Source: a virus
Length of the DNA: 28,971 nucleotides
IMG/VR virus record: IMGVR_UViG_3300009159_000228
Location: 1-28,971 of that record
Strand: one strand, 5' to 3'
The notes under the pieces were generated by a model, which worked only from the letters and a program-made list of their open reading frames with translations, ran no database searches and was not told the DNA's origin. The translations under genes and the position numbers were made by a program. Positions within the stretch are counted from its first letter, which is position 1. Each line of letters opens with the position of its first letter. Below are positions 760 through 22,626 of the stretch, piece by piece.

Positions 760-1950
760 ATGACCACATACACCAATATCTTTGGCGGAAGCAATATCTC
801 TCCTGCAGAGATCAGCTACGCAGAAGTTTCGCTGACGGCCAACACAACTTTTGATTGGGCCCTTGAGACAGCTCCATCAACGAACTTGATTGCGGGCATC
901 ATGGATGTCACTGCTACTTCAGGTCCTTGGAGCTTGACTCTGCCAAGTGCTCTTGAAGCATCAACAGGCCAAGCAATCCTGTTCAACAACGTTGGATCAA
1001 ATTCTTTCATTATTAGGAACAACAGTGGTACTCAAGTTGCTGCGCCTGCTGCTGGTCAAGTTTGGCAGATCTACCTGACTGACAACACAACAGCTGGCGG
1101 TACTTGGCTTGCATTCCAGTTTGGTGCAGCGGTGTCTACTGCAAATGCTGCCTCTTTAGCTGGAACAGGGCTAGTCGCAATCGGATCCCTTTTGTCTTTG
1201 GCAATGCCGGTCACTTTCTTTGGAAGCAATTACTCGGCTGGTATTGACGATCGGGCAAAGACATTTATCTGGAATGGAGGAGCCGGCACCCTTACCATGA
1301 CGGCTGCCGGAACACTTGGCAACAACTGGTTCATTCAGCTTCGCAATGAAGGTACTGGCGCCATCTTAGTAGATCCTCCAGGATCTCAGACAATCAATGG
1401 CTCATCTACGCTAAGCTTTCAGCCAGGCGATTCTGCTATCATCTTTACGGACGGCAGCAATTTTTATACCCTTGGCTACGGCCAATCTCCTGTCTTTGCG
1501 TTTGACTACACATCAATCAGCGTTGCAGGAACAGGCAACTACACCTTGTCTGGTAGCGAGCTAAACAGGATTGCCTACAACTTCACAGGCGTTCTAACCG
1601 GCAACCGTACGATCATTGTGCCTCAAACTGTCCAGCAATACTGGGTGGCTAACAATACAACTGGTCCTTACACCCTTACCGTAAAGACTTCGATTGCTTC
1701 CGGTTACGCCGTCAACCAAGGCTCACGGGCCATCTTGTATTCTGACGGAACCAACGTAGTTGCTGCCGATACCGGAGGCGTTGCAGTTCCTATCAGCATC
1801 TCTGATGGTGGTACTGGAGCCACAACTGCAGGAAACGCATTGATCAATTTAGGTGGAACAGCAACTGGTATTGCCTTGTTTACGGCTGCCTCGCAAGCTG
1901 CTGCTCAAGTGGCCATCGGTCTTGATCCCATCCAAGGTGGAACTTACTAA
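760..1950 (+). CDS. Fibre- or decoration-like virion protein
   Basis: This 396-aa protein is rich in Gly, Ser, Thr and Asn, with repeated short beta-type segments such as SGPWSLTLPSA, GTLTMTAAGTLGNNWF and GNYTLSGSELNRIAYNF. The middle and C-terminal blocks look like diverged copies of one another: each runs from a cofactor-free beta stretch to an FxDGSNxYTLG or YSDGTNVVAADTG turn. The C-terminus has ISDGGTGATTAGNALINLGG, a pattern common at the ends or joints of phage tail-fibre proteins. It lies between the adaptor and gp10-like genes, one base after the upstream stop. A role as fibre, receptor-binding protein or virion decoration is inferred; no enzymatic domain is visible. Confidence 0.6.
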   Translation: MTTYTNIFGGSNISPAEISYAEVSLTANTTFDWALETAPSTNLIAGIMDVTATSGPWSLTLPSALEASTGQAILFNNVGSNSFIIRNNSGTQVAAPAAGQVWQIYLTDNTTAGGTWLAFQFGAAVSTANAASLAGTGLVAIGSLLSLAMPVTFFGSNYSAGIDDRAKTFIWNGGAGTLTMTAAGTLGNNWFIQLRNEGTGAILVDPPGSQTINGSSTLSFQPGDSAIIFTDGSNFYTLGYGQSPVFAFDYTSISVAGTGNYTLSGSELNRIAYNFTGVLTGNRTIIVPQTVQQYWVANNTTGPYTLTVKTSIASGYAVNQGSRAILYSDGTNVVAADTGGVAVPISISDGGTGATTAGNALINLGGTATGIALFTAASQAAAQVAIGLDPIQGGTY

Positions 1951-3596
1951 TGACCACAACCCCAATCGTCCTTAAGTCGCTGCCTGGCATCAAGCGTGAT
2001 GGCACCAGGTACGAGGGCGACTACTATGTTGATGGACAATGGGTCCGTTGGCAGAGGGGCCTTCCTCGTAAGGTTGGAGGCTACACCGTTGTCAACAGAT
2101 ACCTGACCGAAGTTAGCCGTGGGGTCAAGACTTTTACTCAAAATGGGCAGACATACTTTCATTCTGGCAGTGCTGGTTTTGTGCAGCGATTCACTCTTGA
2201 TGCCAGCGGAAACTCAAGCCTGATTACAGACAGGACTCCAATTACGTACGTTGTCGATGACAATAATCTTTGGCAGTTTGATGTCATCTATGACAGCCAG
2301 TCTATTCCTGCTGCAAATATGATTGTTGGCCAAGTGGCTCCAAATGCCAATTGTCTTTGCAACACAGATGGTGGCCAGTTATTTATTGGCTCAATGACAG
2401 GAACGGACGCCTTGACAGAGGTCACAACGTTTCCTGCTGGCGTAAGCGTCACCGGAGGCGTGGTTGCCTTGCATCCTTATCTGATGTACTTTGGCAACGA
2501 CGGTGTCATCGGATGGTCTGTTGCGGGAGCTCCTACTGACTTGACCGGTTTGGGTTCAGGAAGTGCTCGAGTAGCAGGTCAAAAGATCGTGCGTGGGGTT
2601 GCTCTTCGAGGTGGTCCAGGAAATGCCCCATCGGGCATCTTTTGGAGTGCTGATGCTGTTATCCGTGGATCTTTTGTGGGAGGCCAAGAGGTCTTCCAGT
2701 TTGACACGATCAGCCCATACTCTAGTATCTTGTCTGCCGCCTCAGTGATTGAGTATGACGGCCAGTACTTCTGGTTGGGAACAGACCGCATGCTGATGTT
2801 CAACGGCGTGGTTCGCGAGATCCCTAATAACCTGAACATCAACTACTTCTATGACGGTCTAAACAGGGAAGCTGCCCAACGAGTTTGGGCTTTCAAGGTT
2901 CCTCGTTACGGCGAGATCTGGTGGTGCTATCCACGCGGAACAGCCACCGAATGCACCCATGCCATCATCTACAACGTCCGTGAGAACACTTGGTATGACA
3001 CGGAGTTGCCTAATGGTGGACGGACCGCTGGGGAGTGGTCTCCTTTGTACGCTGCGCCACTTCTGTGCGGCCTACAAACATCCACTTTTGTGCCAAATAA
3101 CAGGATCACAGAAGCCGGCGATCTTCGCGTCACTCAAGACAACGATCAGCGCATTGTGGTTCCTGAAGAGGGATTTAAGGTCTGGCAGCACGAGCACGAC
3201 GTGAACGAGATTGATGGCCAGTTCATCACGGCAGTCCCTTCTTACTTTGAGACAGCTGACATGAGCATGCTTGTCCCCCAAGGCGGCTCTAAGAACAAAT
3301 GGATTCGGGTTGAATCCATAGAGCCAGACTTTGTGCAGTCTGAAAACATGACTGTTCAGCTTACAGGTAGAGCAAATGCCAAGGCTCTTGAAGTTCCTGG
3401 TCCAGAGCGTGTTATTTTTGCGGTGCCAACTACACCCTATGAGCAAGTTGTGTCTTTTAAAGAAGCTCGCCGCGAACTGCGCTTTAAGTTTACTTCAAAC
3501 ACAATCAACGGCACTTATCAGATGGGCCAGGTCATTGCCCATATTGGTGAGGCAGATGGAGATGTACTTGGCGGATTAGCAGAGGGTTCCACGTGA
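1950..3596 (+). CDS. Phage tail stabilisation protein (P22 gp10-like)
   Basis: This 548-aa protein starts at ATG in a TAATG overlap. Its N-terminus, LPGIKRDGTRYEGDYYVDG followed by QWVRWQRGLPRKVGGY, matches the phage stabilisation family (P22 gp10), where LPGxxRDGTxF...YxDGxWxRFxRGxPxKxGGY is the hallmark. In P22, gp10 forms the hub that closes the tail and holds the needle, keeping DNA inside the head. The rest is beta-propeller-like, with repeated aromatic and Gly strands such as YFWLGTDRMLMFNGVVREIP and GEIWWCYPRG. Length is near that of P22 gp10 (about 470 aa), somewhat longer. The stop overlaps the GTG start of the following small gene. Confidence 0.8.
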   Translation: MTTTPIVLKSLPGIKRDGTRYEGDYYVDGQWVRWQRGLPRKVGGYTVVNRYLTEVSRGVKTFTQNGQTYFHSGSAGFVQRFTLDASGNSSLITDRTPITYVVDDNNLWQFDVIYDSQSIPAANMIVGQVAPNANCLCNTDGGQLFIGSMTGTDALTEVTTFPAGVSVTGGVVALHPYLMYFGNDGVIGWSVAGAPTDLTGLGSGSARVAGQKIVRGVALRGGPGNAPSGIFWSADAVIRGSFVGGQEVFQFDTISPYSSILSAASVIEYDGQYFWLGTDRMLMFNGVVREIPNNLNINYFYDGLNREAAQRVWAFKVPRYGEIWWCYPRGTATECTHAIIYNVRENTWYDTELPNGGRTAGEWSPLYAAPLLCGLQTSTFVPNNRITEAGDLRVTQDNDQRIVVPEEGFKVWQHEHDVNEIDGQFITAVPSYFETADMSMLVPQGGSKNKWIRVESIEPDFVQSENMTVQLTGRANAKALEVPGPERVIFAVPTTPYEQVVSFKEARRELRFKFTSNTINGTYQMGQVIAHIGEADGDVLGGLAEGST

Positions 3597-3820
3597 TCAC
3601 GCAACCTGTTATAATAGGATTGCGCGACTGGGCGGATTGTGTCGTACTCGACCTTTCAAACTATGGCGCACTTTCAAGGCTGGACAATGAAGACAAATGG
3701 CAGGAGTGGGCGCTACAGTTCTGCGTAATTTCAGGACTAAGCCAGAAAAACGTTCCTAATCCATTTGACTTTCCTGACTGGCGTAGTTGGGCACAACGAT
3801 TTGTACAAATGGTGGACTAA
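3593..3820 (+). CDS. Small conserved phage protein, unknown function
   Basis: This 75-aa protein starts at GTG in a GTGA overlap with the gp10-like stop and ends in TAATG with the ACP gene, so it is locked into the translational chain. It is Trp-rich: KWQEWALQFCVISGL in the middle and NPFDFPDWRSWAQRFVQMVD at the end, so W..WA occurs twice, about 25 residues apart. A short Trp-rich protein of this kind often follows the gp10-like gene in environmental podovirus-like genomes, but no function is known to me. It may be a small virion or assembly factor. Reading frame and coupling are well supported; function is not. Confidence 0.7.
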   Translation: MITQPVIIGLRDWADCVVLDLSNYGALSRLDNEDKWQEWALQFCVISGLSQKNVPNPFDFPDWRSWAQRFVQMVD

Positions 3821-4110
3821 TGACCGATCAAGAATTTATTCAGCTGCTGAATGAAGTAGCTAAAAAAGCCAGGCCTTTCAATAGCGAGGTTCGGCAAATT
3901 GACTCGATGGACATGATCCTTAAGGAAACTGGCTTAGACAGCCTTGACATGCTGATGTGCATAGTTTACCTTTGCGAGATCTACGACGTAGAAGACGAAA
4001 AAAGCAAAGAGATGCTGGGCGAGACCCCGCAAGATCTTTTTAACTTCCTGAAGGAATGGGGACGCCGACAGCCAGCTGACCTAGACCAAGCAAGGGAGTG
4101 GTTCGTATGA
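3820..4110 (+). CDS. Acyl carrier protein
   Basis: This 96-aa acidic helical protein has the ACP signature TGLDSLDM. Ser41, in Asp-Ser-Leu, is the expected 4'-phosphopantetheine attachment site. Helix II follows (LDMLMCIVYLCEIYDVE), with the acidic recognition face usual for ACPs, and the C-terminal ETPQDLFNFLKEW matches the TVQAAIDYI helix of bacterial ACP. Typical ACPs have 75-85 residues; this one has a short extra tail. The ATG overlaps the upstream stop (TAATG); an upstream TTG at 3787 in frame is less likely. Its stop overlaps the start of the ketosynthase (ATGA). No phosphopantetheinyl transferase is visible, so the host enzyme would have to activate it. Fold and site are clear; the partner pathway is inferred. 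Confidence 0.88.
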   Translation: MTDQEFIQLLNEVAKKARPFNSEVRQIDSMDMILKETGLDSLDMLMCIVYLCEIYDVEDEKSKEMLGETPQDLFNFLKEWGRRQPADLDQAREWFV

Positions 4111-5228
4111 GAATCTTCCTCACCGAAAGCCGCACTGCGTGCACTGAGGACACGACTCTCTTTGAGAACCACACCTTTCCCCAAAGGGTTCACTTGTTTC
4201 CTGAGACCTACAACAGGGTCAAGACAGGATTGATCAACCCAGCCCATCAGGTAGCTGAAAAGGTCTTGGATCCCGAGCTTTTAAAGCTCCTCCGAGACAC
4301 CCAACCTGGCCGAACGGCCTTCATCCTGGCAGCCGGCAACAGCAATTTTGCCAACGAAGGCGCCAAACTCAATCGAGAAAATGAATGGACCTACAACTAC
4401 AAGGTCCTTCCATTGTCTCTGACCCAGATCTATGCTGGTCGGGTTGCTGCGCAGTGCGGAGAGATTGATCACACCGCAACGGATGCCACTGCTTGTACAT
4501 CTAGCCTCAAGGCTTTGATGGACGTACAGACCCTGATCAAGTTTTATGGCTTTGACCGGGTAGTTGTACTAGCTATTGAGGACCAGGTCAACAACATGAC
4601 CCTCCAGTTCTTTGGAGAAGCTAAAGCAACCCTGACAGAAAGCATGGCCCAGACTCACCAGGTGGTCCCCAGTGCCTTCGATTCCAAGAACTTTGGGTTC
4701 TATATAGGTCAGGGCGCTGCGTTTGCCGTATTTGAGTCAGAAGACGCTTTAAAGCGGTCAAAGTTACGGGCAAGAGCAGAGCTTTTGTCAGCTTGGACAG
4801 CAACCGAAGTTGCAAAAAACGCCATTGGACAAAGAGAAGATGGACAAGGTTTTAGACGAGCTATCGAGGGCGCGCTCAAACTTTGTCAAATTTCCTCAGA
4901 ACAAATTAAAATCGTAAAAACTCATGGTACCGGTACCAGATCTAACAACGAAGCCGAAAAAGCTGCGCTGGAAGGGTTCTTGAGTGATTTTGTAGCAACA
5001 TCGTACAAGCAACGAATCGGCCATACGATGGGAGCGAGCGGATTGTTAGAGACCCTCTTGCTGTTCAATGATTTAGAAAAGGGAACTGTCCCTGGGATCT
5101 TGAATCGTAGCGAGGAGGATCATGTATTCCTCTCAGAGGCGATTGAAGCACCTGAAGGGGCAGTGTTAAGCTTGAGTGCTGGCATGGGCAACGTGTTCAG
5201 TGCTGCGCTTTTCAACATGAGGATCTAA
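4107..5228 (+). CDS. Beta-ketoacyl-ACP synthase (KAS I/II type)
   Basis: A 373-aa thiolase-fold condensing enzyme. These enzymes join an acyl chain held on the active-site Cys to malonyl-ACP with loss of CO2. The key residues are present: Cys130 in DATACTSS, His273 in KTHGTGTRSNNEAE, and Lys301 with His306 in KQRIGHTMGASG. The C-terminal loop LSLSAGMGN corresponds to the GFGGxN region, though the usual Phe gate is changed. It is shorter than FabF/FabB (about 405-412 aa), mostly by a diverged N-terminus. ATG at 4107 overlaps the ACP stop; an in-frame GTG at 4098 adds only three residues. It is coupled to its likely partner ACP and sits among virion genes. Chain length and product cannot be read from the sequence. 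Confidence 0.9.
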   Translation: MRIFLTESRTACTEDTTLFENHTFPQRVHLFPETYNRVKTGLINPAHQVAEKVLDPELLKLLRDTQPGRTAFILAAGNSNFANEGAKLNRENEWTYNYKVLPLSLTQIYAGRVAAQCGEIDHTATDATACTSSLKALMDVQTLIKFYGFDRVVVLAIEDQVNNMTLQFFGEAKATLTESMAQTHQVVPSAFDSKNFGFYIGQGAAFAVFESEDALKRSKLRARAELLSAWTATEVAKNAIGQREDGQGFRRAIEGALKLCQISSEQIKIVKTHGTGTRSNNEAEKAALEGFLSDFVATSYKQRIGHTMGASGLLETLLLFNDLEKGTVPGILNRSEEDHVFLSEAIEAPEGAVLSLSAGMGNVFSAALFNMRI

Positions 5229-5230
5229 TT

Positions 5231-5686
5231 ATGCCGCTCGTAGACAGCCGACAACAAATGCTAGATCTTGGCGAGGTGCTTAAAGTAGCCGCCGAGAATA
5301 CAAAATCTGAATACCCGATGGAATTCGTGTATGCTTCCTTTGTAAAGGAGGTGCAGATGCCTGACAGCAAGTTTTATCGCTACGGCAATACTGTCTACAT
5401 TGTGCATGGTTCAAAAACAGAACCTCGCAAAGGCATGTTCAGGGCATTAAACGCAGATACAGCTCCAAATTTTGTAGCTTCTGGTTTTGCTTTTGTCGTT
5501 GATGCTTATAAAGCAGGATTTGACACACTGGTCACCCAGTTCAGCGACCAAAGCCTCATAAATATTTTCCGCAATGTTGCTAAACAACCCCCTAACCCTG
5601 GCATGGGCTATAACGTCACAATGCTAAAAGACGGGCAGTACCAAGTTGCTTTGCAATTGGGAAACAAACGTGAAGGAGCACAATAA
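5231..5686 (+). CDS. Conserved phage protein of the virion module, unknown
   Basis: This 151-aa soluble protein starts two bases after the ketosynthase stop and ends in TAATG with the next gene. It mixes helices and strands: SRQQMLDLGEVLKVAAENTK, KFYRYGNTVYIVHGS, MFRALNADTAPNF, GFAFVVDAYKAGFDTLVTQF and PGMGYNVTMLKDGQYQVALQLG. The order helix, strand with R(A/x)LNADT, helix, strand, then GMGY..., and a closing strand is compatible with a small acetyltransferase-like (GNAT-type) fold, but I do not see a convincing acyl-CoA binding loop, so this is only a suggestion. Related proteins occur between tail and ejection genes of environmental podovirus-like phages. If it is an acyltransferase, its position beside ACP and ketosynthase would be meaningful. 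Confidence 0.7.
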   Translation: MPLVDSRQQMLDLGEVLKVAAENTKSEYPMEFVYASFVKEVQMPDSKFYRYGNTVYIVHGSKTEPRKGMFRALNADTAPNFVASGFAFVVDAYKAGFDTLVTQFSDQSLINIFRNVAKQPPNPGMGYNVTMLKDGQYQVALQLGNKREGAQ

Positions 5687-7752
5687 TGGGTGCAGTAGCC
5701 AGTTTTGTTGAAGACGTTGTTGGCGGAGTAGTTGAAGCCGTTGGTAGCGTCGTTGAAAGCGTCGTTGACGTTGTCAAAGACGTTGGTAAGGCAATTGATG
5801 ATTATGTCATCCAGCCTATTCTTGATGATCCCCTTTCTGCAATTGCAACGGTGGCAGCTGCCACGTTCCTAGGACCGGCGGCTGCAGCTTATTTTGGCAC
5901 GTCTGCCGCTGTTGGTGTTGGTATTGCTGCAGGTGCGGCAAACACGGCAGCCGGCCTTGTTCAAGGTGAAGACTTTGGAGAAGCGATTAAAGGCGGCTTA
6001 CTGGCAGGGGCAGGAGCCGGCATTGGAGCTGAGTTCTTTGGACCTGGCGGTGGAGACGTTCCAGCTCCATCAGCAGATCCTCTTGGTGATTTTATTGCAC
6101 AGAACAATAACTTCTCTAACGTCGATGTTTCTGGCATTGGAGCCCCTAACGTTGAAGTTGGTGGACCAATTCCAAATCCACAAATTACTGCAACTGAGCT
6201 ACCTCCTCTTGGTGGCGAAACGGCTGCAACAACGCCTACTGCCGGACCAGCAGCTCCTGAAGTTACTTCGCCACTTCAAACTCAAGCAACGGTCCCAACC
6301 TCAACTGTAGACGTTCAAAGTCCTCTTCAGTCACTGAACACGGCAACTCCAACGGTTGAAATGCCTACCACTGCTCCTGCAGCAACGGCTCCTGAATTGC
6401 CAACGTTTAAGTCAGGCCTTGATACCTCATTTAACCCTGACTACAGCTTGTCAAGTGGCAATGGTGCTCCTGGTCTCAAAGTTCCTGATTTTAGAATTGA
6501 CGCTCCTACCACTAACTACTTGACAGGTCAGACAGACTTTAGCCTTACTCCTCCAGGTACATCTGGTGGCCCTGGTCTCCAAGCCCCAAGTGCTCCTAAT
6601 TTAGCAAGCATGGGTGGTGGCCAAGGTTTAACTGTTGACATGCAAGGCTTGCCTCAGTACATGGAGAATGGTGTTCCTACCACTTTCCAAGGTGCAAACG
6701 GAAACACCTACGGCAATCCAACGCCAGATGTGACAGTAAGCCAAAGCGGAATTACCCCAACGCCGCAATCAATAAATTACCCAGCAACAACTCCTCCTGT
6801 TCCTAGCGTATGGGATAACATCACTAATGGAAACCTTACAGACGCTGCAAAGCAAGTTGGTACAAGTGCTGTTGATTGGGTAACAGCAAACCCTTGGACA
6901 GCCGCGGGCGTAGGCCTAGCAGCAGCTGGAACCCTTGGCGGAGCTGGTGGTCCTCCTAATCAGCCTCCTCCAAAACCAGGATCTACGCAGGATAAGAACT
7001 TCACCAAGTCTCTGGACCTGTACAACTACATGCGCGACAAGACTAACTATGCTGGGGACATCTCCAAGTATGGTCAAGCAGGTCAACAAAATTCTGGAGA
7101 ACATCAATTCTTCCAAAACACTAAGTTTGTGCCTGTTCCAATCCCTGGTCAGACTCCAGCCACTCCTGCTAAGATGGGAGGCTTGATTCAGATGAAGCAT
7201 TTTGCTCAAGGTGGTCAAGCTCAAGGCATGCAAGATCCTCGTCGCGCTCAAATGATGCAGGCCATGGCTCAGCAGCATGCTGCCGGTCAAGGTGGTCCTC
7301 AAGGCATGGCTCAAGGACGTCCTCCAATGATGCAAGGTGGTCCTCAAGGAATGCCGCAAGGTATGCCTCCCCAAGGTGGTCCTCAAGGAATGCCTCAGCA
7401 AGGTCGTCCTCAGATGCCTCAGCGTCCTCGTGACCCTAAGATGGCCTACTATCAATATGGCAATCCTCCTATGCAAGCAAAGGCGATGGGTGGACTTAGC
7501 CAAGTGCACAGCATGAGAATCGGTGGTGGTGCAGACGGTCGTTCTGATGACGTAAATGCTGTCTTGTCTGATGGCGAATACGTGATGGATGCTGAGTCAG
7601 TGGCAATGCTGGGCAATGGATCCTCAAAGGCAGGAGCAGCTAAGCTTGACCAGATGAGATCAAAATTACGTCAGCACAAAGGGAAAGCTCTTGCAGGTGG
7701 CAAGATTAGCCCAAATGCCAAGAGCCCACTGTCCTATTTGAGAGGAGCTTAA
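5686..7752 (+). CDS. Internal/ejection-type virion protein, 688 aa
   Basis: The N-terminus is a run of Val-rich amphipathic turns (residues 1-35), then Ala/Gly-rich hydrophobic stretches around residues 45-115 of the kind seen in ejected pore or internal proteins. The middle (about 120-430) is low-complexity, rich in Pro, Thr and Ala. Residues about 455-475 carry KYGQAGQQNSGEHQFF, and two GG motifs follow (KMGGLIQMKHFAQGGQ and AMGGLSQVHSMRIGGG), separated by a Pro-Gln-Gly repeat (about 534-582). The C-terminal part (GRSDDVNAVLSDGEYVMD, then AESVAMLGNGSSKAG) is a conserved block widespread in environmental phage virion proteins. No enzyme motif is visible. SD GAAGGAG precedes the ATG. Role in DNA ejection is inferred from composition and position. 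Confidence 0.65.
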   Translation: MGAVASFVEDVVGGVVEAVGSVVESVVDVVKDVGKAIDDYVIQPILDDPLSAIATVAAATFLGPAAAAYFGTSAAVGVGIAAGAANTAAGLVQGEDFGEAIKGGLLAGAGAGIGAEFFGPGGGDVPAPSADPLGDFIAQNNNFSNVDVSGIGAPNVEVGGPIPNPQITATELPPLGGETAATTPTAGPAAPEVTSPLQTQATVPTSTVDVQSPLQSLNTATPTVEMPTTAPAATAPELPTFKSGLDTSFNPDYSLSSGNGAPGLKVPDFRIDAPTTNYLTGQTDFSLTPPGTSGGPGLQAPSAPNLASMGGGQGLTVDMQGLPQYMENGVPTTFQGANGNTYGNPTPDVTVSQSGITPTPQSINYPATTPPVPSVWDNITNGNLTDAAKQVGTSAVDWVTANPWTAAGVGLAAAGTLGGAGGPPNQPPPKPGSTQDKNFTKSLDLYNYMRDKTNYAGDISKYGQAGQQNSGEHQFFQNTKFVPVPIPGQTPATPAKMGGLIQMKHFAQGGQAQGMQDPRRAQMMQAMAQQHAAGQGGPQGMAQGRPPMMQGGPQGMPQGMPPQGGPQGMPQQGRPQMPQRPRDPKMAYYQYGNPPMQAKAMGGLSQVHSMRIGGGADGRSDDVNAVLSDGEYVMDAESVAMLGNGSSKAGAAKLDQMRSKLRQHKGKALAGGKISPNAKSPLSYLRGA
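7285..7430 (+). repeat. Pro-Gln-Gly-Met coding repeat
   Basis: The DNA word GGTGGTCCTCAAGG recurs at 7291, 7336 and 7376, encoding repeated GGPQGM units with QGMPQGMPPQ linkers inside the 688-aa virion protein. It reads as a flexible hydrophilic spacer between two GG-type motifs. The near-identity of the DNA copies suggests recent slippage expansion. Confidence 0.8.
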
Positions 7753-7753
7753 T

Positions 7754-9460
7754 ATGGGAGTTCTGGACTTTCTGTTCCAGGGGTCTCCACCTGCGTCGGT
7801 CACGACGTACGGTGAGACAACCTCTAACGTTCCTGCCTGGTATTCTGACTATACGCAGGGCTTGATCAGTCGAGCTAACTCGATCGCAGCAGAGCCTTAT
7901 CAGCCGTATAGCCAGGCCAGGATTGCTGGCTTTGATCCGCTTCAAACGCAGGCGTATAACAATACGGCAAACCTAGCAAGCACCTATCAACCCCAGATGG
8001 AAATGTCGCAAAATGCGATATACAACGCCGGTGCTGGCAGCTCTGTCAATGCGGCATCTCCGTACATCTCAGAGGCCCTTAAATACAACCCGTACAATGC
8101 TGCCTCTGGTTCTATTGGACAAGCAAGCAATCTGATTGGTCAAAGCTACGGCGACACAAGTGCCTTGGCACAACCGTACTTCAACCAAGCCAACCAGCTG
8201 ACCGGCCAAGCTATGCAGGGAACTGCTAGTCTTGCTCAACCGTACTTCAACCAAGCCAACCAGTATACTCAACAAGGAGCTGCTGGAACTGCTAGTCTTG
8301 CTCAGCCATATCTGAATCAAGCAGCTATGGGAACTGCAATTGCAGGAGGAGCAGATACTGCGGGCATGGCAAGCCCATACATGCAGCAAGCTTCTCAACT
8401 GTCTAGCCAAGGTGCTCAGACTGGTTTAGGTGGCATCCAAGACTACATGAACCCATACCAAGACCAAGTGGTCAACCGTATTGGTGAACTAGCTGGTCGC
8501 AACCTGAAAGAGAACCTGCTGCCGAGTATCAATGACCGTGCCATTCAATCTGGCACGTTTGGCGGTAGTCGTAGTGGAGAAGCTATTGGGCGCGCTTTGC
8601 GTGATACCCAAGAATCTACCCTGGCTCAACAGTCTGCTGCCCTTCAATCTGGTTACTCACAAGCCGGTCAACAACTTCAGGCCGATAAAGCTCGTCAGTT
8701 GCAAGCTGCTCAACAGCAAGCCGGTTTTGGTCAGCAAGCTGCAAACCTTTCTGCTGCAGATTTCCAGCGCATGCTTTCAGCCTCTGGTCAACAAGCCCAG
8801 ATTGGTCAGAGTATGGCCGGTCTCTCGTCAGCTGATCAGCAGCGCATGTTGGCAGCAGGCCAGCAATCTGCGGCCCTTGGTCAATCTCAGGCAGGAATGG
8901 CTTCTGCAGACTATCAGCGTATGTTGGCTGGTGCTCAACAGCAAGCCGCCATGGGTCAATCAGCTGCAGGCTTAGAAGGTGCAGACCTTGCAAGATACGG
9001 TCAAGCAGGTTCCCAAATGGGTGCCCTTGGTCAAATGCAAGGAAACTTGGCAGGAGCCGCAGGCACCCAAAACCTTCAGGCAGCTCAACAAATGGGAACA
9101 TTGTCCAATCAGGACTTTGCTCGCATGTTGCAATCTGGCCAGGCAATGGGGGCCCTTGGTCAACAAACCCAGCAGATGGGCATGCAGAATATCAGCGCTT
9201 TGGATGCAGCTGGAGCAACTCAGCAGCAGCAAGCGCAGCGCTCGATGGATCAGGCTTACCAAGACTTCCTCAACCAACGAGAGTACGACCGCAACAACAT
9301 TGCCTTCTTGAATGCATCTGTTCGTGGTTTGACTGTGCCTACTTCTACAACGTCTACTTCAAACGGACCTGCAAGCGTCTACCAGCCATCTCCATTGTCG
9401 CAATTCGGCTCTGCATTGGCTTCTGGATACGGCCTCAGCAAGATGTTTGGAAAACCATAA
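7754..9460 (+). CDS. Internal virion / DNA-injection-type protein, 568 aa
   Basis: A 568-aa protein rich in Gln, Ala and Gly. The N-terminus (MGVLDFLFQGSPP..., then ARIAGFDPLQTQAYNN) and the middle block MNPYQDQVVNRIGELAGR followed by INDRAIQSGTFGGSRSGEA form a pattern (PYxxxVxxxI...AxxxGxFGGSR) common in internal proteins of short-tailed environmental phages. Three exact-period 22-aa repeats lie at residues 135-200, and four 25-aa repeats at 333-432 (SADxQRML...GQSxAG). The long Gln/Ala repeats probably form helices or coiled coil, as in ejected proteins that line the DNA path. The C-terminus ends GYGLSKMFGKP. SD AGGAG lies before the ATG, just after the upstream stop. Function is by analogy with P22 gp7/gp16/gp20; there is no catalytic motif. 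Confidence 0.65.
   Translation: MGVLDFLFQGSPPASVTTYGETTSNVPAWYSDYTQGLISRANSIAAEPYQPYSQARIAGFDPLQTQAYNNTANLASTYQPQMEMSQNAIYNAGAGSSVNAASPYISEALKYNPYNAASGSIGQASNLIGQSYGDTSALAQPYFNQANQLTGQAMQGTASLAQPYFNQANQYTQQGAAGTASLAQPYLNQAAMGTAIAGGADTAGMASPYMQQASQLSSQGAQTGLGGIQDYMNPYQDQVVNRIGELAGRNLKENLLPSINDRAIQSGTFGGSRSGEAIGRALRDTQESTLAQQSAALQSGYSQAGQQLQADKARQLQAAQQQAGFGQQAANLSAADFQRMLSASGQQAQIGQSMAGLSSADQQRMLAAGQQSAALGQSQAGMASADYQRMLAGAQQQAAMGQSAAGLEGADLARYGQAGSQMGALGQMQGNLAGAAGTQNLQAAQQMGTLSNQDFARMLQSGQAMGALGQQTQQMGMQNISALDAAGATQQQQAQRSMDQAYQDFLNQREYDRNNIAFLNASVRGLTVPTSTTSTSNGPASVYQPSPLSQFGSALASGYGLSKMFGKP
8156..8353 (+). repeat. Three tandem 66-bp coding repeats (22 aa)
   Basis: Units begin at 8156, 8222 and 8288 and encode T(S/A)xLAQPYxNQAN-type repeats. 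A 27-bp word starting CAACCGTACTTCAACC is identical at 8171 and 8237, and GGAACTGCTAGTCTTGCTCA is shared by units two and three. Such DNA-level identity implies recent tandem duplication. Confidence 0.85.
8750..9049 (+). repeat. Four 75-bp coding repeats (25 aa)
   Basis: Units start at 8750, 8825, 8900 and 8975. The first three encode (S/A)(A/S)ADxQRML, then a Gln/Ala-rich stretch ending GQSxAG(L/M). The fourth (EGADLARYGQAG) is diverged, and a partial copy (NQDFARMLQSGQAMGALGQQ) follows near 9111. The heptad-like spacing suggests a helical rod in the virion protein. Confidence 0.75.
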
Positions 9461-9469
9461 GGATAAAAA

Positions 9470-12400
9470 ATGCCATTGCTTGAAGATGACGAAGAAACCG
9501 GTTCCCTGGAAGCGGGTTCACAAGATGCAACCAGCGGGGCGCAAACATTTGGCTATTCCTCATCAAGAGGGGCGGCCAATCCTTATACTGGACAACTCCA
9601 AACCTTACTGACAAAATATCTTGAAAACACTGAAAAATCGGCGACTGATAAACAGGCCCTGCTGGATAAGGCGCGTGAGCGGATCATGGCTAGGTCCGCT
9701 GGTCCGGACCAGGCAGAGATGGCGTTCCGTATTGCGGCTGCTCTCGGTAAGCCTACTCGGACTGGGGGCTTTGGTGAAACACTTGGTAATCTTGCCGAGA
9801 CGACTGGCGAGGCTCTTTCGCAGCGCCGTAAAGCCAGCCAAGAACTAGAAGACCTAAACCTTAAATATCAGTTGGCAGCAGCTGACGTAAAAGGTGAAGG
9901 TCAAAAAGCTCAGATTGGAGCTCTTTCTGCCCTGGCTCGTTCAACTCCTAAGGATCGCCTGACAGAGATTGAGAAGATGCAGGAGATCATCGATGATCCC
10001 AAGGCCAATGAAAATGCCAAGAAGAATGCGCAATCACGCATCACTTACTTGACCACTCGCCCATCGGCCGTCAAGACCAATGAGATCGATCAGTTGCTAG
10101 AGAAGATCAACGATCCTAATGTGTCGCCTGCCAACAAGAGTGTCTACAAGCAACGCTTGAACAAGCTCAACTATATTCCTTCTGAAGCCAAGGCCGAGCG
10201 AGATGCTGATAAGCCGTCATCTCCGGCCGGTAAGCTTGCCAAGGATGAAGGCCTGACTCCAGGGACCCCTGAATTTACCGCTCGAGTGAAAGCTTTGGCT
10301 GGTGAGGGCAAGGGCTTGAACCTAAGTGCAAAAGAACAAAGTGAGCTGTTTGAAGCTGAAGACGTTGTCAACGCTAGCAAGACGGCAATCTTAAACTTGA
10401 CCAAAGCCAAACAGATCAGCCCTCAAGCTTATTCTGGTTTTGGTGCAGGAGCCCGCCGCACGATTGCCCGCAACATTCCAGGAGTCGGTGACTCGCAAGG
10501 CGTGACTGCAACTACTGACCTTGAGACTTTGGTCTTGTCAAATGGACTTGACCAGTTGAAAGCCATCTTTGGTGGTAACCCAACTGAAGGCGAACGTAAG
10601 ATCCTGATAGACATTCAGGGCTCGCTCAGCATGAGTGATACCGAACGTCAGGCTATCTACGATCGCGCTATCAAGGCAGCGGCTCGTCGCTTGAAGACTA
10701 GCCAAACCAAGATGGAGAACATCCGCAAGGGTGCTTACGGCAAGATCACTCCCGAAGCTAATGCAGACGGTGGCTTTGTTGGCCGTTACGCAGACGGTGG
10801 CATGGTTGCTCACTACGCTGATGGTGGCATCACCAATCAACAGATTCAGGATTACTTAGCTGCCAATCCTGGAATGAGCGATCGCGATATTGCTGCAGCC
10901 ATGAACCAGTATGGCGTGAGTACCTCTCAAATGGCAGGTGCAACAGGCCTTGGACTTGAAGAACTTCAGAGCCGATATGATGCTGCAACAGCTCCTGCGG
11001 CTCCTTCAGCCCCTGCTGGAGTAAGCAGTCAACAGATTATCGACTACCTAAATGAAAATCCTGGACTGACTGACCACCAAATTGCGGTGGCCATGAACCA
11101 ATATGGCGTAGACACTTCTCAAATGGCTGGAGCAACTGGCCTTGGGCTAGATCAAGTGCAGCAGCGGTATAACGCGGCAGTCCAACCCATTGGAGACAAT
11201 TTAGTCAAGGACTGGCTCGGCAAGAATACTGGGGTCTCTGACCAAGACATTGCTTTTGCAATGAACCAATATGGCGTCACGCCTGGTCAAATGGCAAAGG
11301 TCACAGGCCTTAACGTTGGTGACGTGCAGAAGCGTTACGACGCTGCGGCTCCTAAGTATTCCAATGCAGACGTCAACAACTGGTTGAAGTCTCACCCAGG
11401 AGCCTCTGACAAAGACATTGCGGCGGCTATGAACCAGTTTGGTGTTGGTACGCTTCAGATGGCTGCTACAACTGGTCTGCCTTGGCAAGATGTAGGCAGT
11501 CGCTATACTGCCGCTGGCGGTACCCAGTCTCAGCCAACTCCAGTTACTAAGACAACCGCAACAACTCCAGTTACCAAGACAACTCCAACAACTCCCGTCA
11601 CTCCAACCAAGCAGACATATTCTCCTGAAATGATGGAGATGATGCGCAAATACTTGGGCGGTCCTGACGCACTTACAACTTACGGCCAATATGGCTCTAA
11701 GTCTGCGGCAGAACATAAGTTTTTTGACCATGAGCTTGTTAAGAAAGCAGACGGTGGAATGGTCCACATGGCTGACGGCGGAGATTATTCAATGGCCAAC
11801 TTTGGCCGCGCTGTCGGTCAGGGCTTAGGTCTTGGCTTTGGCGACGAGGCTGTTGCCCGTGTTCGAGCCAAGATGGAAGGTCGCCCTTATGAAGACGTTG
11901 TCCGTGAAGAACGTGAAGCCTATCAGCAGTTCCAAGAGAAGCATCCCTTTGCTGCCTTGGGCACTGAGCTAGTCTCAGGCGCAATTCCAACCATTGGTAT
12001 GGCAATGATCCCAGGAGCCGGAACAGCCGGATCTGTGATGGGAGCCGGCCGCATGGGAATGGCTGCAAGCAAGCTGGCCCAATACATGCCCAAGTTTATG
12101 ACTGGCACTATGGGTAAGGCGGCAGGATCCGCTGCGGCAACGGGCTCTATTGCAGGAGCAGGTTCTGCAACCGAAGGCGAACGCGGTATGGGAGCCTTGG
12201 AAGGCGGCGCAACAGGGGCTGTCCTTGGCCCAACTGTAGCCAAAGGCATCCAGCTCACTGGTCAGGCAGCCAAGGCTGTTAAAAATGCAATCCGACCATC
12301 TCCTGGGGCCGTAGAGCAACGCGCAACCAATAAGGTATTGGAAGCTATGGGCAGGGACGAAATGGACCCTACAACCCTTAAGGCAAGGATGGCAGCTGAC

Positions 12401-18076: not shown

Positions 18077-19063
18077 ATGTCACATGAAGTTGAAACGATG
18101 GCTTACGCCAATGAGACCCCTTGGCACGGCCTTGGTACCCCTGTCGCTGACAACTTGACTCCTGCCCAGATGCTCGAAGCAGCTGGACTCAACTGGCAAG
18201 TCAAGAAGAAAGCTTTGGTCGTCGACGAACTCGACCACGTGTTGAGCAGCCACTACGCTTTGGTGCGCGACACAGACAGCAAGATCCTTGGCGTCTGCGG
18301 CAGCGACTACAACCCCACACAAAACCAAGAAGTCTTTGAGTTCTTTGACAAGTTCTGCAAAGCCGGCGACATGAAGATGGAGACTGCAGGTTCTCTTCAT
18401 GGCGGCAAGCGTGTTTGGGGCCTTGCAAAGATCAACGGCGGCTTTATGTTGGGCGGCAAAGACGAAGTCGAAGGCTACATCTTGCTCGACAATCCGCACA
18501 TCTGGGGCCGCAGCCTGCAGATCATGTTCACGCCAATCCGCGTTGTTTGCAATAACACGCTGACGGCCGCTCTTCGCGATAATAAAAACAAGGAGAACAC
18601 ATTCCGCATGTCACACGATCGCGCGTTTGACGACGAGATCAAGCAAACTGCTGCGGAAAAAGTTGGCCTTGCAATGAAATCGCTCGACGTGTTCAAGCAG
18701 CAAGCAGAGTTTCTGTCTAAGAAACGCGCTAAAGATCAACAAGTCATGGAATTCTTTTCCAAGCTTGTTAATCCAGACCAATATCAAGCAGCTTTGATTG
18801 CTTCTGAAGATGGTCAAGTCAATCGTTCAGATCTTGGCCGTACGGTCAACCGTTTGATTGACATCGTGCACACCCAACCAGGTGCTGATCTGAAGACTTC
18901 AGCCGGTACTTGGTGGGGCGCATTCAACGCCGTGACGTACTACTACGATCACGTCGCTGGAACTGATCAAGACAAGCGTCTGACAAGCGCGTGGTTTGGT
19001 TCAGCCGCTACTCGTAAACGCCAAGCACTTGACTTAGCCGTCGAGTTCGCTGAAGCAGCCTAA
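18077..19063 (+). CDS. DUF932 phage/plasmid-like protein
   Basis: A 328-aa protein with the N-terminus of the DUF932 / TIGR03299 family: SHEVETMAYANETPWHGLGT, then a LTPAQMLEAAGLNWQVKKK segment. The family is widespread in phages and plasmids, usually as a single copy beside replication genes; its biochemical role is not established. The later part has a conserved PIRVVCNNTLTAAL motif and a Trp-rich GTWWGAFNAVTYYYDH segment near residues 275-290, also typical of the family. Length is usual. It has its own leader (probable promoter upstream) and a strong terminator right after the stop, so it looks like a single-gene unit that may be strongly expressed. Family assignment is firm; function is unknown. 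Confidence 0.88.
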   Translation: MSHEVETMAYANETPWHGLGTPVADNLTPAQMLEAAGLNWQVKKKALVVDELDHVLSSHYALVRDTDSKILGVCGSDYNPTQNQEVFEFFDKFCKAGDMKMETAGSLHGGKRVWGLAKINGGFMLGGKDEVEGYILLDNPHIWGRSLQIMFTPIRVVCNNTLTAALRDNKNKENTFRMSHDRAFDDEIKQTAAEKVGLAMKSLDVFKQQAEFLSKKRAKDQQVMEFFSKLVNPDQYQAALIASEDGQVNRSDLGRTVNRLIDIVHTQPGADLKTSAGTWWGAFNAVTYYYDHVAGTDQDKRLTSAWFGSAATRKRQALDLAVEFAEAA

Positions 19064-19068
19064 AACCT

Positions 19069-19090
19069 GGGGGCTTCGGCCCCCTTCATT
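19069..19090 (+). terminator. Rho-independent terminator after DUF932 gene
   Basis: GGGGGC-TTCG-GCCCCC forms a 6-bp all-GC stem with the very stable TTCG tetraloop, beginning 6 bases after the stop codon and followed by TTCATT. The tail is weakly T-rich, so read-through to the downstream operon is possible. Confidence 0.75.
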
Positions 19091-19109
19091 CCCACTCTAG
19101 GAGAAAATT

Positions 19110-19964
19110 ATGGCAAACGCCAGAGGAAAGTCTATCGACAACACTCACCTGAGCATTGATCAGGCTGAGGAACGTGGTTTCATTCATAGAGACTACATCG
19201 CCCACTGTCTACGTTGGACGCATGTAGCAAAGTGGATGGGTAACCCTAAACACCGCAAGGATTGCAAGCTGCTTGACATTGGCTGCGGCAAAGACGTACC
19301 ATTGGCAAAGATGCTGATGACCAGTCGTATGGCGTCAGATGGTCTTGACTACATCGGCATTGACTACAACAAGCTTGAAATGCCTAAGGCTTTTGAGAAC
19401 ACCAAGTTCAAGCCTACTCTGATTGGCAACGTGGCCTTCCCAGACTGCAAGTTGCCTCATGAGAAGTTTGACGTCATCACAAGCTTTGAAGTCCTTGAGC
19501 ACGTTGAGCCTTTGCATGCTTACAAGATGCTGGAAGGTATCCGTGATCGCTTGACCGATGACGGCGTTGCCTTCTTGTCTACCCCTGTCTATGACCCACA
19601 AGTCGGCGCAGCAGACAACCACGTCAATGAGATGACCTACGAAGTGATGCAGTTGATGCTTCACAAGGTTGGTTTGGAAGTTGACGACCACTTCGGCACT
19701 TTTGCCTCAATCAAAGACTACAAGGAAATGATCGCCAAAGATGATCTCGATTCAGTGTTCAGCCGCCTGCGTGATTACTACGACAGCAATTACTTGGCAA
19801 CTATATTTGCCCCCTTATATCCTCACCGTTCTCGAAACGTGCTCTGGCGGGTCAAACTGCCGAAAAATACTGAGATGTTTAGCGCAGGCAAATTTGCAGA
19901 CCTCACAAAGCCCCTGTCAAGCAGCGAAGCCTGGCAGCCACTCTTTGACTACCTTGGAGAGTAA
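19110..19964 (+). CDS. Class I SAM-dependent methyltransferase
   Basis: A 284-aa protein with a Rossmann-type methyltransferase core. Motif I is KLLDIGCGKD (Leu55 to Gly60 binding SAM), the next strand ends in GIDYNK (near 83), and the post-core motif ITSFEVLEHVEP (near 127) is typical of the Methyltransf_11/23 group that acts on small molecules or proteins. DPPY- or PC-type DNA methylase motifs are absent, so DNA methylation is not supported. AGGAG lies 7 bases before ATG. The gene heads the nucleotide operon: the MazG-like gene starts two bases after its stop. Substrate is unknown; neighbours hint at nucleotides, but virion or RNA targets are equally possible. Confidence 0.8.
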   Translation: MANARGKSIDNTHLSIDQAEERGFIHRDYIAHCLRWTHVAKWMGNPKHRKDCKLLDIGCGKDVPLAKMLMTSRMASDGLDYIGIDYNKLEMPKAFENTKFKPTLIGNVAFPDCKLPHEKFDVITSFEVLEHVEPLHAYKMLEGIRDRLTDDGVAFLSTPVYDPQVGAADNHVNEMTYEVMQLMLHKVGLEVDDHFGTFASIKDYKEMIAKDDLDSVFSRLRDYYDSNYLATIFAPLYPHRSRNVLWRVKLPKNTEMFSAGKFADLTKPLSSSEAWQPLFDYLGE

Positions 19965-19966
19965 CC

Positions 19967-20356
19967 ATGGATCTGTCAAAGATGGTAGCAGAGTTTCACC
20001 AGAAGTTTGGGCTGGAACCGACTGCACAGCCTGACTTTCCGGTGAGGGAGATCTGGGAGCTTAAGAACGCTCATCTGCAAGAAGAGTTGAACGAGATCAG
20101 AGCAGCAGCAATCAACGGCAACTTGGAAGAGTATTTTGACGGCCTGATTGACTTGGTCTATGTAGCTCTTGGGGCAGCCTACTTATCAGGCTTGCCCTTT
20201 GACGAGGGCTTCAAAAGGGTGCATGAAGCAAACATGAAAAAAGTGCGCGCTTTAAGGCAAGAAGATAGCAAACGCGGGTCTACCTATGATATAGTGAAAC
20301 CTGCAGGATTCGTGGCTCCAACGCTTACGGACCTCATCAGAAAGGAGAAAGAATGA
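19967..20356 (+). CDS. MazG-like nucleotide pyrophosphohydrolase
   Basis: A 129-aa all-helical protein. The pattern LQEELNEIRAA, then about 15 residues later YFDGLIDLVYVALGAAYL, matches the metal-binding ExxE...(E/D)xxD arrangement of the MazG / all-alpha NTP pyrophosphatase superfamily (here with D-x-x-x-D in the second half). These enzymes split dNTPs to dNMP and pyrophosphate; relatives include dCTPases and dUTPases. The phage may use it to clear dCTP or dUTP, supplying dNMP to the enzymes encoded next. Its stop overlaps the kinase start (ATGA). Length fits single-domain family members. The substrate is inferred from the neighbourhood. Confidence 0.75.
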   Translation: MDLSKMVAEFHQKFGLEPTAQPDFPVREIWELKNAHLQEELNEIRAAAINGNLEEYFDGLIDLVYVALGAAYLSGLPFDEGFKRVHEANMKKVRALRQEDSKRGSTYDIVKPAGFVAPTLTDLIRKEKE

Positions 20357-21345
20357 AAGGCATTATTGTCATTGACGGTTGTGATGGAACAGGCAAGACT
20401 ACGCTTGCTGAAGCTATTTGCAAACGCCACGATGGCGTCTACATTCACAACACATATCGCTGGCCTTCAAAGATGCCGCTGTATCACACAGCAGCCTTGC
20501 ATCGTGCATTGAAGTTGTCACGTACACGTTTGGTTGTGATCGATCGCCTTTGGATGAGCGAAGCCATCTATGCAGAGGTGTATCGTAATGGCAGCCCTTG
20601 GCCTCACATGGGTCGCATGATTGATCGCATCATCCGCAAGGTTGGTGGCGTCTACATCTTGACTCAATCACCTGCTAACCATGCTGAAAAGTTTGAGCAG
20701 CTTAAAGGTGAACGCGAAGAGATGTACGACAACGTCGATCATGTTCGCAAGCGCTTTGATGAGTTGTTTGAAGGTGGTTTGTCTGGTCATGACTATGACT
20801 ATGCACAACAGCTGTCTGTGTTTGGTATGCGCAATCGTGATGATGTGCTGCCATATCGCTACGACGTTGAAGGCACCAATCTTGATGTCTACATTGACAT
20901 GGTGATGTCTGTCCTTCAATCACGATTGATGAAGCAATATGAGCCTGCTTTGCACTTGCACACCAAGAACTTTGCAGGTCACTTGCATGAAGCCAATATC
21001 ATCTTTGTAGGTGACAAGGCCAACAGCAAGATGCGTGCAGTCAGCTGGCCTTTCTACGACTTTGGCAATTGCAGCGAATTCTTTGCTGATGCTTTGCATT
21101 CATTATCCTTTGATGAGACTAGAGCAATCTACATCAACGCGCATGATGGCAATGGTCCTTTGTACGTCAATGATTGCTTACGCGCAAAGCCTTACATGAA
21201 GGTCATCTGCTTTGGCAATCAGGCTTACGACACCATGAGCGAATTCACTCGCAAGATTCATAAGGTCATGCATCCATCTTATGCAAAGCGCTTCAACAAG
21301 CGTCAAGAGTTTTTACTACAACTTGAGGAGGTCATCAATGGTTAA
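20353..21345 (+). CDS. dNMP (thymidylate-type) kinase fused to UDG-like domain
   Basis: A 330-aa protein with two parts. Residues 1-195 are a thymidylate-kinase-like P-loop kinase: Walker A GCDGTGKTT (9-17), and VVIDRLWMSEAIYAEVYR resembling the DRxxxSxxAYQ substrate motif. Residues about 210-330 look like the uracil-DNA glycosylase superfamily: IIFVGDKANSK...SWPF (motif 1 region), YINAHD, VICFGNQAYDTM, and KVMHPSYAKRF (the HPS motif). Single-domain TMP kinases are about 200-215 aa, so the extra 120 residues are a genuine second domain. SD AAAGGAG precedes the ATG. The substrate may be dTMP or a modified dCMP, as with T4 gp1 kinase (inference from neighbours). The UDG-like part may be a nucleotide-binding or repair module. 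Confidence 0.75.
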   Translation: MKGIIVIDGCDGTGKTTLAEAICKRHDGVYIHNTYRWPSKMPLYHTAALHRALKLSRTRLVVIDRLWMSEAIYAEVYRNGSPWPHMGRMIDRIIRKVGGVYILTQSPANHAEKFEQLKGEREEMYDNVDHVRKRFDELFEGGLSGHDYDYAQQLSVFGMRNRDDVLPYRYDVEGTNLDVYIDMVMSVLQSRLMKQYEPALHLHTKNFAGHLHEANIIFVGDKANSKMRAVSWPFYDFGNCSEFFADALHSLSFDETRAIYINAHDGNGPLYVNDCLRAKPYMKVICFGNQAYDTMSEFTRKIHKVMHPSYAKRFNKRQEFLLQLEEVING

Positions 21346-22132
21346 CACAACCAACATGAACTGGCAAGGCTTGTTAGATGTCATCATGAACAGTGGCATT
21401 GATACCAGCCCACGTGGAAAACGTACAAAGGAACTGATGGGCTTCAAGTCAATGATTGACATGAACCAGCCTGTTATCACGATCAAGGAGCGCAATCTTG
21501 GCTACAAGTTTATGGCAGCTGAAGCAGCATGGATCATGGCTGGCGATAACCGCGTCAGCACAATTGCCCCGTTTAGCAAACAGATCAGCAACTTCTCTGA
21601 CGACGGTATCCTTTTCTTTGGCGCCTATGGACCAAGAATACGCGATCAACTGTCTCACGTGGTTCAGTCGTTACTCGGTGATCCAGACACGCGTCAAGCT
21701 GTCATCACCATTTGGCGGCCAAACCCTCGTGCGTCAAGAGACATCCCATGCACCATCAGCTGCCAGTTCGTTATCCGGATGGGCATGATCCATTGCTTCA
21801 TGAACATGCGTTCTTCTGATGCTTGGCTTGGCGTGCCTTATGACTGGTTCAACTTTAGTATGCTGTCAGCCGGTGTTGCGTTGATGCTGCGTGAGAAAGG
21901 CATGAACGTCAAGCTTGGTGCCTTGCACTTCTATGCAGCAAGCCAGCACTTGTATGAAGAGAATTGGGACAAGGTAGAGCCTTGTTTGTCAGGTGAGATT
22001 CTTGGCGACTATGAGCCAATCAATCTTAATGACTTTAATGACTACGACCACCTGGTCAATCACTTGTGGGCCGTGGCTTATGGAACATCTAAGAACGGTT
22101 TTCTCAAGGAATTATCAACATGGAAAGGATGA
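21338..22132 (+). CDS. Thymidylate-synthase-family enzyme, probable dCMP hydroxymethylase
   Basis: A 264-aa protein starting at ATG 21338 (SD GAGGAGG; 8-base overlap with the kinase stop). Conserved family features: SPRGKRTKEL (phosphate loop), the general-base Glu in AAEAAWIMAG, GAYGPRIRD, DPDTRQAVITIWRP, catalytic Cys138 in DIPCTISCQF, NMRSSDAWLG, and LHFYAASQHLYEENW. In E. coli ThyA the position after LGLPF is Asn177, which picks dUMP; here it is Asp169 (LGVPYDWFNF). T4 dCMP hydroxymethylase also has Asp there, and shares the RP and NMRS features. So dCMP is the likely substrate and CH2-THF the donor, giving hydroxymethyl- or methyl-dCMP. Ordinary thymidylate synthase remains the alternative. 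Confidence 0.78.
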   Translation: MVNTTNMNWQGLLDVIMNSGIDTSPRGKRTKELMGFKSMIDMNQPVITIKERNLGYKFMAAEAAWIMAGDNRVSTIAPFSKQISNFSDDGILFFGAYGPRIRDQLSHVVQSLLGDPDTRQAVITIWRPNPRASRDIPCTISCQFVIRMGMIHCFMNMRSSDAWLGVPYDWFNFSMLSAGVALMLREKGMNVKLGALHFYAASQHLYEENWDKVEPCLSGEILGDYEPINLNDFNDYDHLVNHLWAVAYGTSKNGFLKELSTWKG

Positions 22133-22626
22133 ACAGAGATGAATACTTTTCGGAATTGGCTTTACTCGTTGCTCGAAGAGCCACTTGCGCTAGGCGGAGT
22201 GTGGGCTGCGTTCTCATATCTTCTCGTGGGCATGTTCTCAGTACTGGTTATAACGGGGTGCCTCGTGGTCATACTCATTGCACTGACGTTCGCTGTCCCG
22301 GTGCTTCTTTGCCTTCGGGGACTGGCTTGGATGTATGTGAAGCTATTCATGCGGAACAGAACGCCCTCCTCCAATGCAAAGACGTGGATCAAATAGATAC
22401 CGCTTATGTCACGGCTATGCCATGCATGACCTGTATGAAATTGCTCTTGAACACAAGCTGCAGGCGCATCGTGTATGTGTCTGATTACCCTCACCAAGAA
22501 GCAAAACAACTTTGGATAAAAAATGGACGAATCATCATATCAACCGCCGAAGCACTTTCCCAATCTGCTGCTAGCAAAGCGAATAGCTATCGATTGCGAG
22601 ACGCGCGACCCGAACTTAATGACTAA
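22120..22626 (+). CDS. dCMP deaminase
   Basis: A 168-aa zinc-dependent cytidine/deoxycytidylate deaminase. His77-Ala-Glu79 (IHAEQNAL) and Pro101-Cys102-x-x-Cys105 (AMPCMTCMK) supply the zinc ligands and catalytic Glu. STGYNGVPRGHTHC followed by CEAIHAE is typical of dCMP rather than cytidine deaminases. It converts dCMP to dUMP and is allosterically controlled by dCTP/dTTP in relatives. ATG 22120 has AAGGA 9 bases upstream; ATG 22129 (ATGA overlap) is too close to its AGG. The last 35 or so residues lie in the region shared with the polymerase gene and have no family counterpart I can recognise. In T4 the same enzyme occurs with gp42. Confidence 0.87.
   Translation: MERMNRDEYFSELALLVARRATCARRSVGCVLISSRGHVLSTGYNGVPRGHTHCTDVRCPGASLPSGTGLDVCEAIHAEQNALLQCKDVDQIDTAYVTAMPCMTCMKLLLNTSCRRIVYVSDYPHQEAKQLWIKNGRIIISTAEALSQSAASKANSYRLRDARPELND

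Follow-up and report, generated by a model that had tools for sequence, protein, structure and literature searches.

A three-gene block in the virion operon of a phage encodes an acyl carrier protein (ACP), a beta-ketoacyl-ACP synthase-like enzyme (KAS) and p151, a GNAT-fold protein. From their sequences, we regard as evenly poised the reading that these genes form a cassette for making an acyl chain and moving it onto a virion protein. All of the folds are known; what appears new is the carrier, ketosynthase and acyltransferase-like protein as one virion-operon block, and we found no report of a phage ACP–KAS–GNAT set in the open-access literature (subscription papers lay outside the search). 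The window, that is, the whole stretch of DNA analysed, comprises positions 1 to 28,971 of the 28,971-bp virus record IMGVR_UViG_3300009159_000228 (IMG/VR), and its relevant genes are:

1950–3596, plus strand: gp10-like virion protein (PHROG 3287), the upstream marker gene of the cassette, outside it
3593–3820, plus strand: 75-aa gene, flanking and outside the cassette, found in cassette-less phages too
3820–4110, plus strand: ACP, 96 aa, phosphopantetheine site Ser41, in a conserved place upstream of KAS
4107–5228, plus strand: KAS, 373 aa, with Cys130, His273, Lys301 and His306, assigned from Pfam
5231–5686, plus strand: p151, 151-aa GNAT-fold protein, a probable acyl-ACP-dependent acyltransferase going by its AlphaFold model and PDB fold matches
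5686–7752, plus strand: 688-aa ejection-block protein, whose N-terminus is the proposed acyl acceptor
7754–9460, plus strand: 568-aa DNA-ejection-like protein (PHROG 4287), the downstream flank

The original prediction had described an intact ACP and KAS coupled to each other and to their neighbours. Both the catalytic residues and the coordinates were confirmed, with the ACP site reading Asp40-Ser41-Leu42-Asp43, and the junctions are GTGA (gp10-like/75-aa gene), TAATG (75-aa gene/ACP) and ATGA (ACP/KAS), all three as described. The start of the 688-aa gene likewise overlaps the p151 stop, indicating translational coupling.

The KAS matched the Pfam ketoacyl-synt N and C domains (PF00109/PF02801; E = 5e-8 and 1e-16, 33.2 and 61 bits against a gathering score of 20.8) and PHROG 35856, labelled 'unknown function' (E = 7e-40). 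The window ACP by itself had no Pfam match; PF00550 was matched by 8 of 27 ACP relatives (best E = 8e-4), and the ACP family profile matched acyl carrier proteins in the PDB (7e-4). A DS(L/M)D motif was present in every main-family ACP (122 loci), and this motif and the KAS Cys/His/Lys/His set were retained in all complete main-family members (124 loci), which places the ACP–KAS pair far beyond chance. Judged by these profiles and motifs, the KAS is a bona fide member of the ketoacyl-synthase superfamily and the ACP, with its DSL serine, is a divergent acyl carrier protein. Neither a malonyl transferase, a short-chain reductase nor a phosphopantetheinyl transferase (PPTase) was found in 20–29 related phage contigs, extending to relatives the absence first noted in the window and upholding the prediction that the host must supply holo-ACP and malonyl groups. 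These missing enzymes, and the encoding of ACP and KAS among virion genes, would suit a role for both proteins as scaffolds of the virion or its assembly, with no acyl chemistry; we consider this very unlikely, as no complete copy, despite large divergence, has lost Ser41 or any of the four KAS catalytic residues.

To place the KAS among viral and cellular enzymes, we scanned for its relatives. A close-relative scan gave 50 viral loci and a profile scan at least 584 confirmed viral-contig stretches, the best 80 of which were carried forward; removing copies left 89 distinct KAS genes, on which the neighbour counts below are based. Among 84,980 bacterial and archaeal species genomes there were only three KAS loci, in metagenome-assembled genomes (MAGs) of Balneolaceae (L122), Hyphomicrobiales (L123) and Sulfurospirillum (L124), each of which resembles phage sequence. 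The only clear relative among phage-collection records was MW202545.1, a 57-kb circular environmental genome. Weak KAS matches in unannotated 'phage' records of Listeria, Enterococcus, Staphylococcus and Pseudomonas were taken as host DNA; Y4, the sole one of these records opened, held a full-length ordinary fabF-like ORF. A fabG-acpP-fabF set has been reported in predicted Rhodobacteraceae prophages (PMC8224337). It includes ACP and KAS genes, as here, but differs in its host gene order with fabG, outside a virion operon and with no GNAT, and is possibly host DNA inside a prophage prediction.

In a maximum-likelihood tree, a 100/100 branch split 21 phage KAS rows from 13 cellular rows (KAS, chain-length-factor and FabF sequences; the placement of the long L124 row is unsure), and tblastn of the KAS against 72,556 plasmids gave at most ~30% identity over long matches. 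The phage KAS thus form their own clade, at most ~30% identical to sampled bacterial enzymes. They share with FabF/FabB, which act with AcpP in type II fatty acid synthesis, the Pfam domains and the Cys-His-Lys-His active site, but have a shortened N-terminal part, GMGN for the GFGG gate motif and scores far under fabF cut-offs (window KAS, 114.5 bits on the FabF/KAS II model TIGR03150 against an equivalog cut-off of 493.75 bits). Median dN/dS was ~0.08 for ACP, KAS and p151, with gp10 equal. The separate clade, the low plasmid identity and dN/dS together argue for an old, selected phage family with no recent host insertion; the 100/100 split from cellular sequences and best full-length plasmid-borne matches of ~30% rule out recent acquisition of KAS from a host. 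Nor was KAS nested in a host genus or frame-damaged, and the low dN/dS and conserved gene order bear out the original prediction of a selected phage pair within a virion operon. A defence system was also considered and set aside, as PADLOC gave no match.

Gene order was strongly conserved. ACP lay directly upstream of KAS at all 87 testable distinct loci and p151 directly downstream at 75 of 76. A gp10 gene lay upstream at 76 of 81. At the sole trio exception (L095:5722–7531), ACP–KAS has no adjoining p151 and is followed by non-virion genes. Separately, a highly divergent KAS (26%) is encoded at L124:7722–8624, next to ejection-like genes and with no adjoining ACP or GNAT; one scan found no viral relatives of it.

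A gp10 scan returned relatives both with and without the cassette. In 40 long gp10-bearing loci the 75-aa gene was followed directly by the ejection-block gene, with ACP, KAS and p151 all absent; in 9 long loci, all three lay between these two genes. The cultured Caulobacter phages RW, GB2A, RLK and KcrB (gp10 51% identical) gave no KAS match, and RW, on inspection, had the same virion genes with none of the three cassette genes. The pair is thus present in related phages, as the prediction would have it, but absent as a clean block from one set of them. We conclude that ACP–KAS–p151 (3820–5686) is nearly always gained or lost together as one unit. On the gp10 tree, cassette presence changes at least twice; since only two changes explain the contrast, few independent events lie behind the N-terminal correlation described below.

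The third member, p151, gave an AlphaFold model (mean pLDDT 91, pTM 0.84; alignment of 44 relatives) with the element order beta-alpha-alpha-beta-beta-beta-alpha-beta-alpha-beta-beta, as in GNATs. In a PDB fold search of the model the top 50 matches all belonged to the GNAT superfamily, pointing to a GNAT fold; they include the N-terminal acetyltransferases RimI, Ard1 and NAT9, plus TofI, an acyl-homoserine-lactone (AHL) synthase, and Rv1347c/MbtK, the last two being acyl-ACP users. Alignment and model topology revealed no R/QxxGxG/A CoA pyrophosphate loop between beta-4 and alpha-3 of p151, where the corresponding segment reads RALNADTAPNF / FRALNADTAPNF. Pfam searches gave no match, neither to a T7 gp13-type profile nor, even at E up to 1, to the HlyC family, and BFVD fold matches included one 'Internal virion protein A' (fold similarity only). 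On its modelled structure, p151 is a probable acyl-ACP-dependent acyltransferase.

Among the closest known systems are protein acyltransferases that use acyl-ACP. ApxIC is an acyl-ACP-dependent protein acyltransferase of GNAT fold that lacks CoA-binding elements (PMC8339906). The RTX toxin-activating acyltransferases HlyC and ApxIC, and CdiC from class IV contact-dependent inhibition, resemble p151 in their GNAT fold without CoA elements, in a gene beside that of the substrate and in an acyl-ACP donor, which for p151 is proposed (PMC8339906, PMC8510554). They differ in having no sequence relation to p151 and in modifying an acceptor lysine as opposed to the proposed N-terminus, and the phage cassette has in addition a dedicated ACP and ketosynthase in a virion-operon setting.

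The next gene encodes the likely substrate. After p151, 69 of 71 distinct N-termini began M[SGAT][AGVI][VIL][VAIL] (66 as called, 3 evident mis-starts), and 0 of 50 did so at the equivalent position in relatives without the cassette; the 688-aa protein of the window starts MGAVA (codons 5686–5700). Position 2 is occupied by one of Ser, Gly, Ala and Thr, nearly always by Ser or Gly. These four residues permit removal of the initiator Met by methionine aminopeptidase; as a point against the cassette reading, small residues at this position are common in proteins generally. Over the following 44 residues the helical hydrophobic moment is 0.41, compared with 0.12 in shuffles, consistent with an amphipathic helix, and beyond them comes a hydrophobic stretch rich in Ala and Gly. 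This N-terminal module is a separate gene just ahead of a gene with a C-terminal SDGEYV motif in 15 loci, and the two are fused in 55. In relatives devoid of the cassette the SDGEYV gene is there but the module is missing (35 of 39 complete), from which we infer that the module arrived with the cassette. Repeats also occur in ejection-block proteins: about six near-identical 19-residue repeats (DDTVFQPVIETVSDVGSAV) lie in the N-terminus of one at L146:9322–9760, and four repeats of ~56–64 residues each (DIAxAMNQYGVxxxQMAxxTGL) lie at window positions 10822–11480, within a 1440-aa protein.

Partial losses of the cassette bear on how its members are linked. One lineage (L146 and L247/L248) has lost ACP and KAS and kept p151; in this lineage the gene that follows begins MGWFSF or MSFFGS, and p151 is altered at E40, H59, F70, R71, F104 and F113, which are 91–100% conserved elsewhere. 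CdiA offers a parallel: when it comes from loci without cdiC it has lost the acceptor lysine (PMC8510554), much as the N-terminal motif is lost here without ACP–KAS. In L135, KAS alone is deleted and ACP, p151 and an MGAVV start are retained. Few as these lineages are, they fit a link between ACP, p151 and the N-terminus, with KAS acting upstream. The joint loss of ACP and KAS, which speaks for the cassette reading, is a single-lineage case; L135 without KAS and L095 without an adjoining p151 count against that reading.

A trio also seems to recur in a distant lineage, its third member less surely assigned. In 16 loci around L123, an ACP, a KAS (~25% identical to the window KAS) and a ~114-aa protein directly precede the portal gene, a different virion position. 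The ~114-aa protein was modelled (pLDDT 80) with a reduced GNAT element order, and its PDB matches were nearly all GNATs, although weak (E of 0.07 and above). An hhalign comparison of p151 with the 116-aa L123 protein showed no link at sequence level, leaving fold likeness only. A further point against the cassette reading is that no recognised MSAVV protein adjoins the L123-lineage cassette.

GNAT-fold proteins beside ejection or internal virion genes also occur in other podoviruses. To our knowledge T7 gp13 and cobavirus pc40, which resemble p151 in fold and setting, have no ACP or KAS partner; p151, for its part, differs from them in lacking a Pfam match. A morphogenesis role has been proposed for such proteins (PMC6775973). 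By analogy, p151 could be a non-catalytic or separate GNAT-fold virion or assembly factor of the T7 gp13 type, the adjacent ACP–KAS being a metabolic pair by which host fatty-acid synthesis is raised or diverted. The internal virion neighbours in T7 and cobaviruses (PMC6775973), the BFVD match and the retention of p151 without ACP–KAS in L146/L247 fit this idea, but it appears unlikely: a phage nearly always has either all three genes or none, the most conserved p151 residues are lost exactly where ACP–KAS is gone, and the same trio is found again in a distant lineage.

Were the cassette to acylate a protein, a host PPTase would charge Ser41 of the phage ACP, and the KAS, its Cys/His/Lys/His set being intact, would load or extend an acyl chain on ACP from host acyl- and malonyl-thioesters. 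Reduction of the 3-ketoacyl product would need host reductases; otherwise the chain would remain unreduced. Given the co-variation with the N-terminus, p151 may then take the chain off acyl-ACP and attach it to the alpha-amine that small residue 2 exposes once Met1 is removed. The candidate acceptor is the N-terminus of the ejection-block protein, with a nearby lysine as the alternative; O-acylation of a Ser side chain at residue 2 is unlikely, as Gly alternates with Ser. The lipidated amphipathic N-terminus could aid entry of the ejection-block protein into the host envelope during genome delivery. That a phage-encoded acyl-chain enzyme, carrier and N-acyltransferase lipidate the N-terminus of an injected protein is a serious possibility, which we put slightly below an even prospect.

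Three roles had been envisaged for the pair: protein acylation, alteration of host membrane lipids, and synthesis of a small lipid or polyketide. The first is now favoured and the other two are less so, p151 and the co-varying N-terminus having previously been missed. ACP, KAS and a GNAT are also a parts list for N-acyl product pathways, and the fold matches of p151 include TofI and Rv1347c/MbtK, so the three might instead make an N-acyl compound (an N-acyl amino acid, a homoserine-lactone-like signal or a membrane aminolipid) that changes the host at a late stage of infection. We think this improbable, because the fixed ejection-block position, the translational coupling with the virion gene that follows and the N-terminal co-variation would be unexpected for a diffusible product.

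It is still poorly understood how short-tailed phages drive their proteins and DNA through the cell envelope, and a lipid added to an ejected protein by phage enzymes would, if confirmed, be a new way into membranes. It would be a phage equivalent of the capsid proteins that carry myristate in animal viruses, differing in that the lipid-supply enzymes are virus-carried here, and would give a function to a KAS family that is labelled 'unknown function' in PHROGs and spans at least 584 viral-contig stretches.

Other parts of the window also encode enzyme-like proteins. A DUF932 protein (PHROG 1221, E = 3e-66, function unknown) and a methyltransferase-like gene (19110–19964) occupy 18077–19964. 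Positions 20353–22626 contain neighbouring thymidylate-kinase-like (weak, under cut-off), thymidylate-synthase-like and deoxycytidylate-deaminase-like genes, which could serve nucleotide supply or DNA base modification. A primase gene at 26661–28184 matches the archaeo-eukaryotic primase domain of TOTE conflict systems (E = 2e-20).
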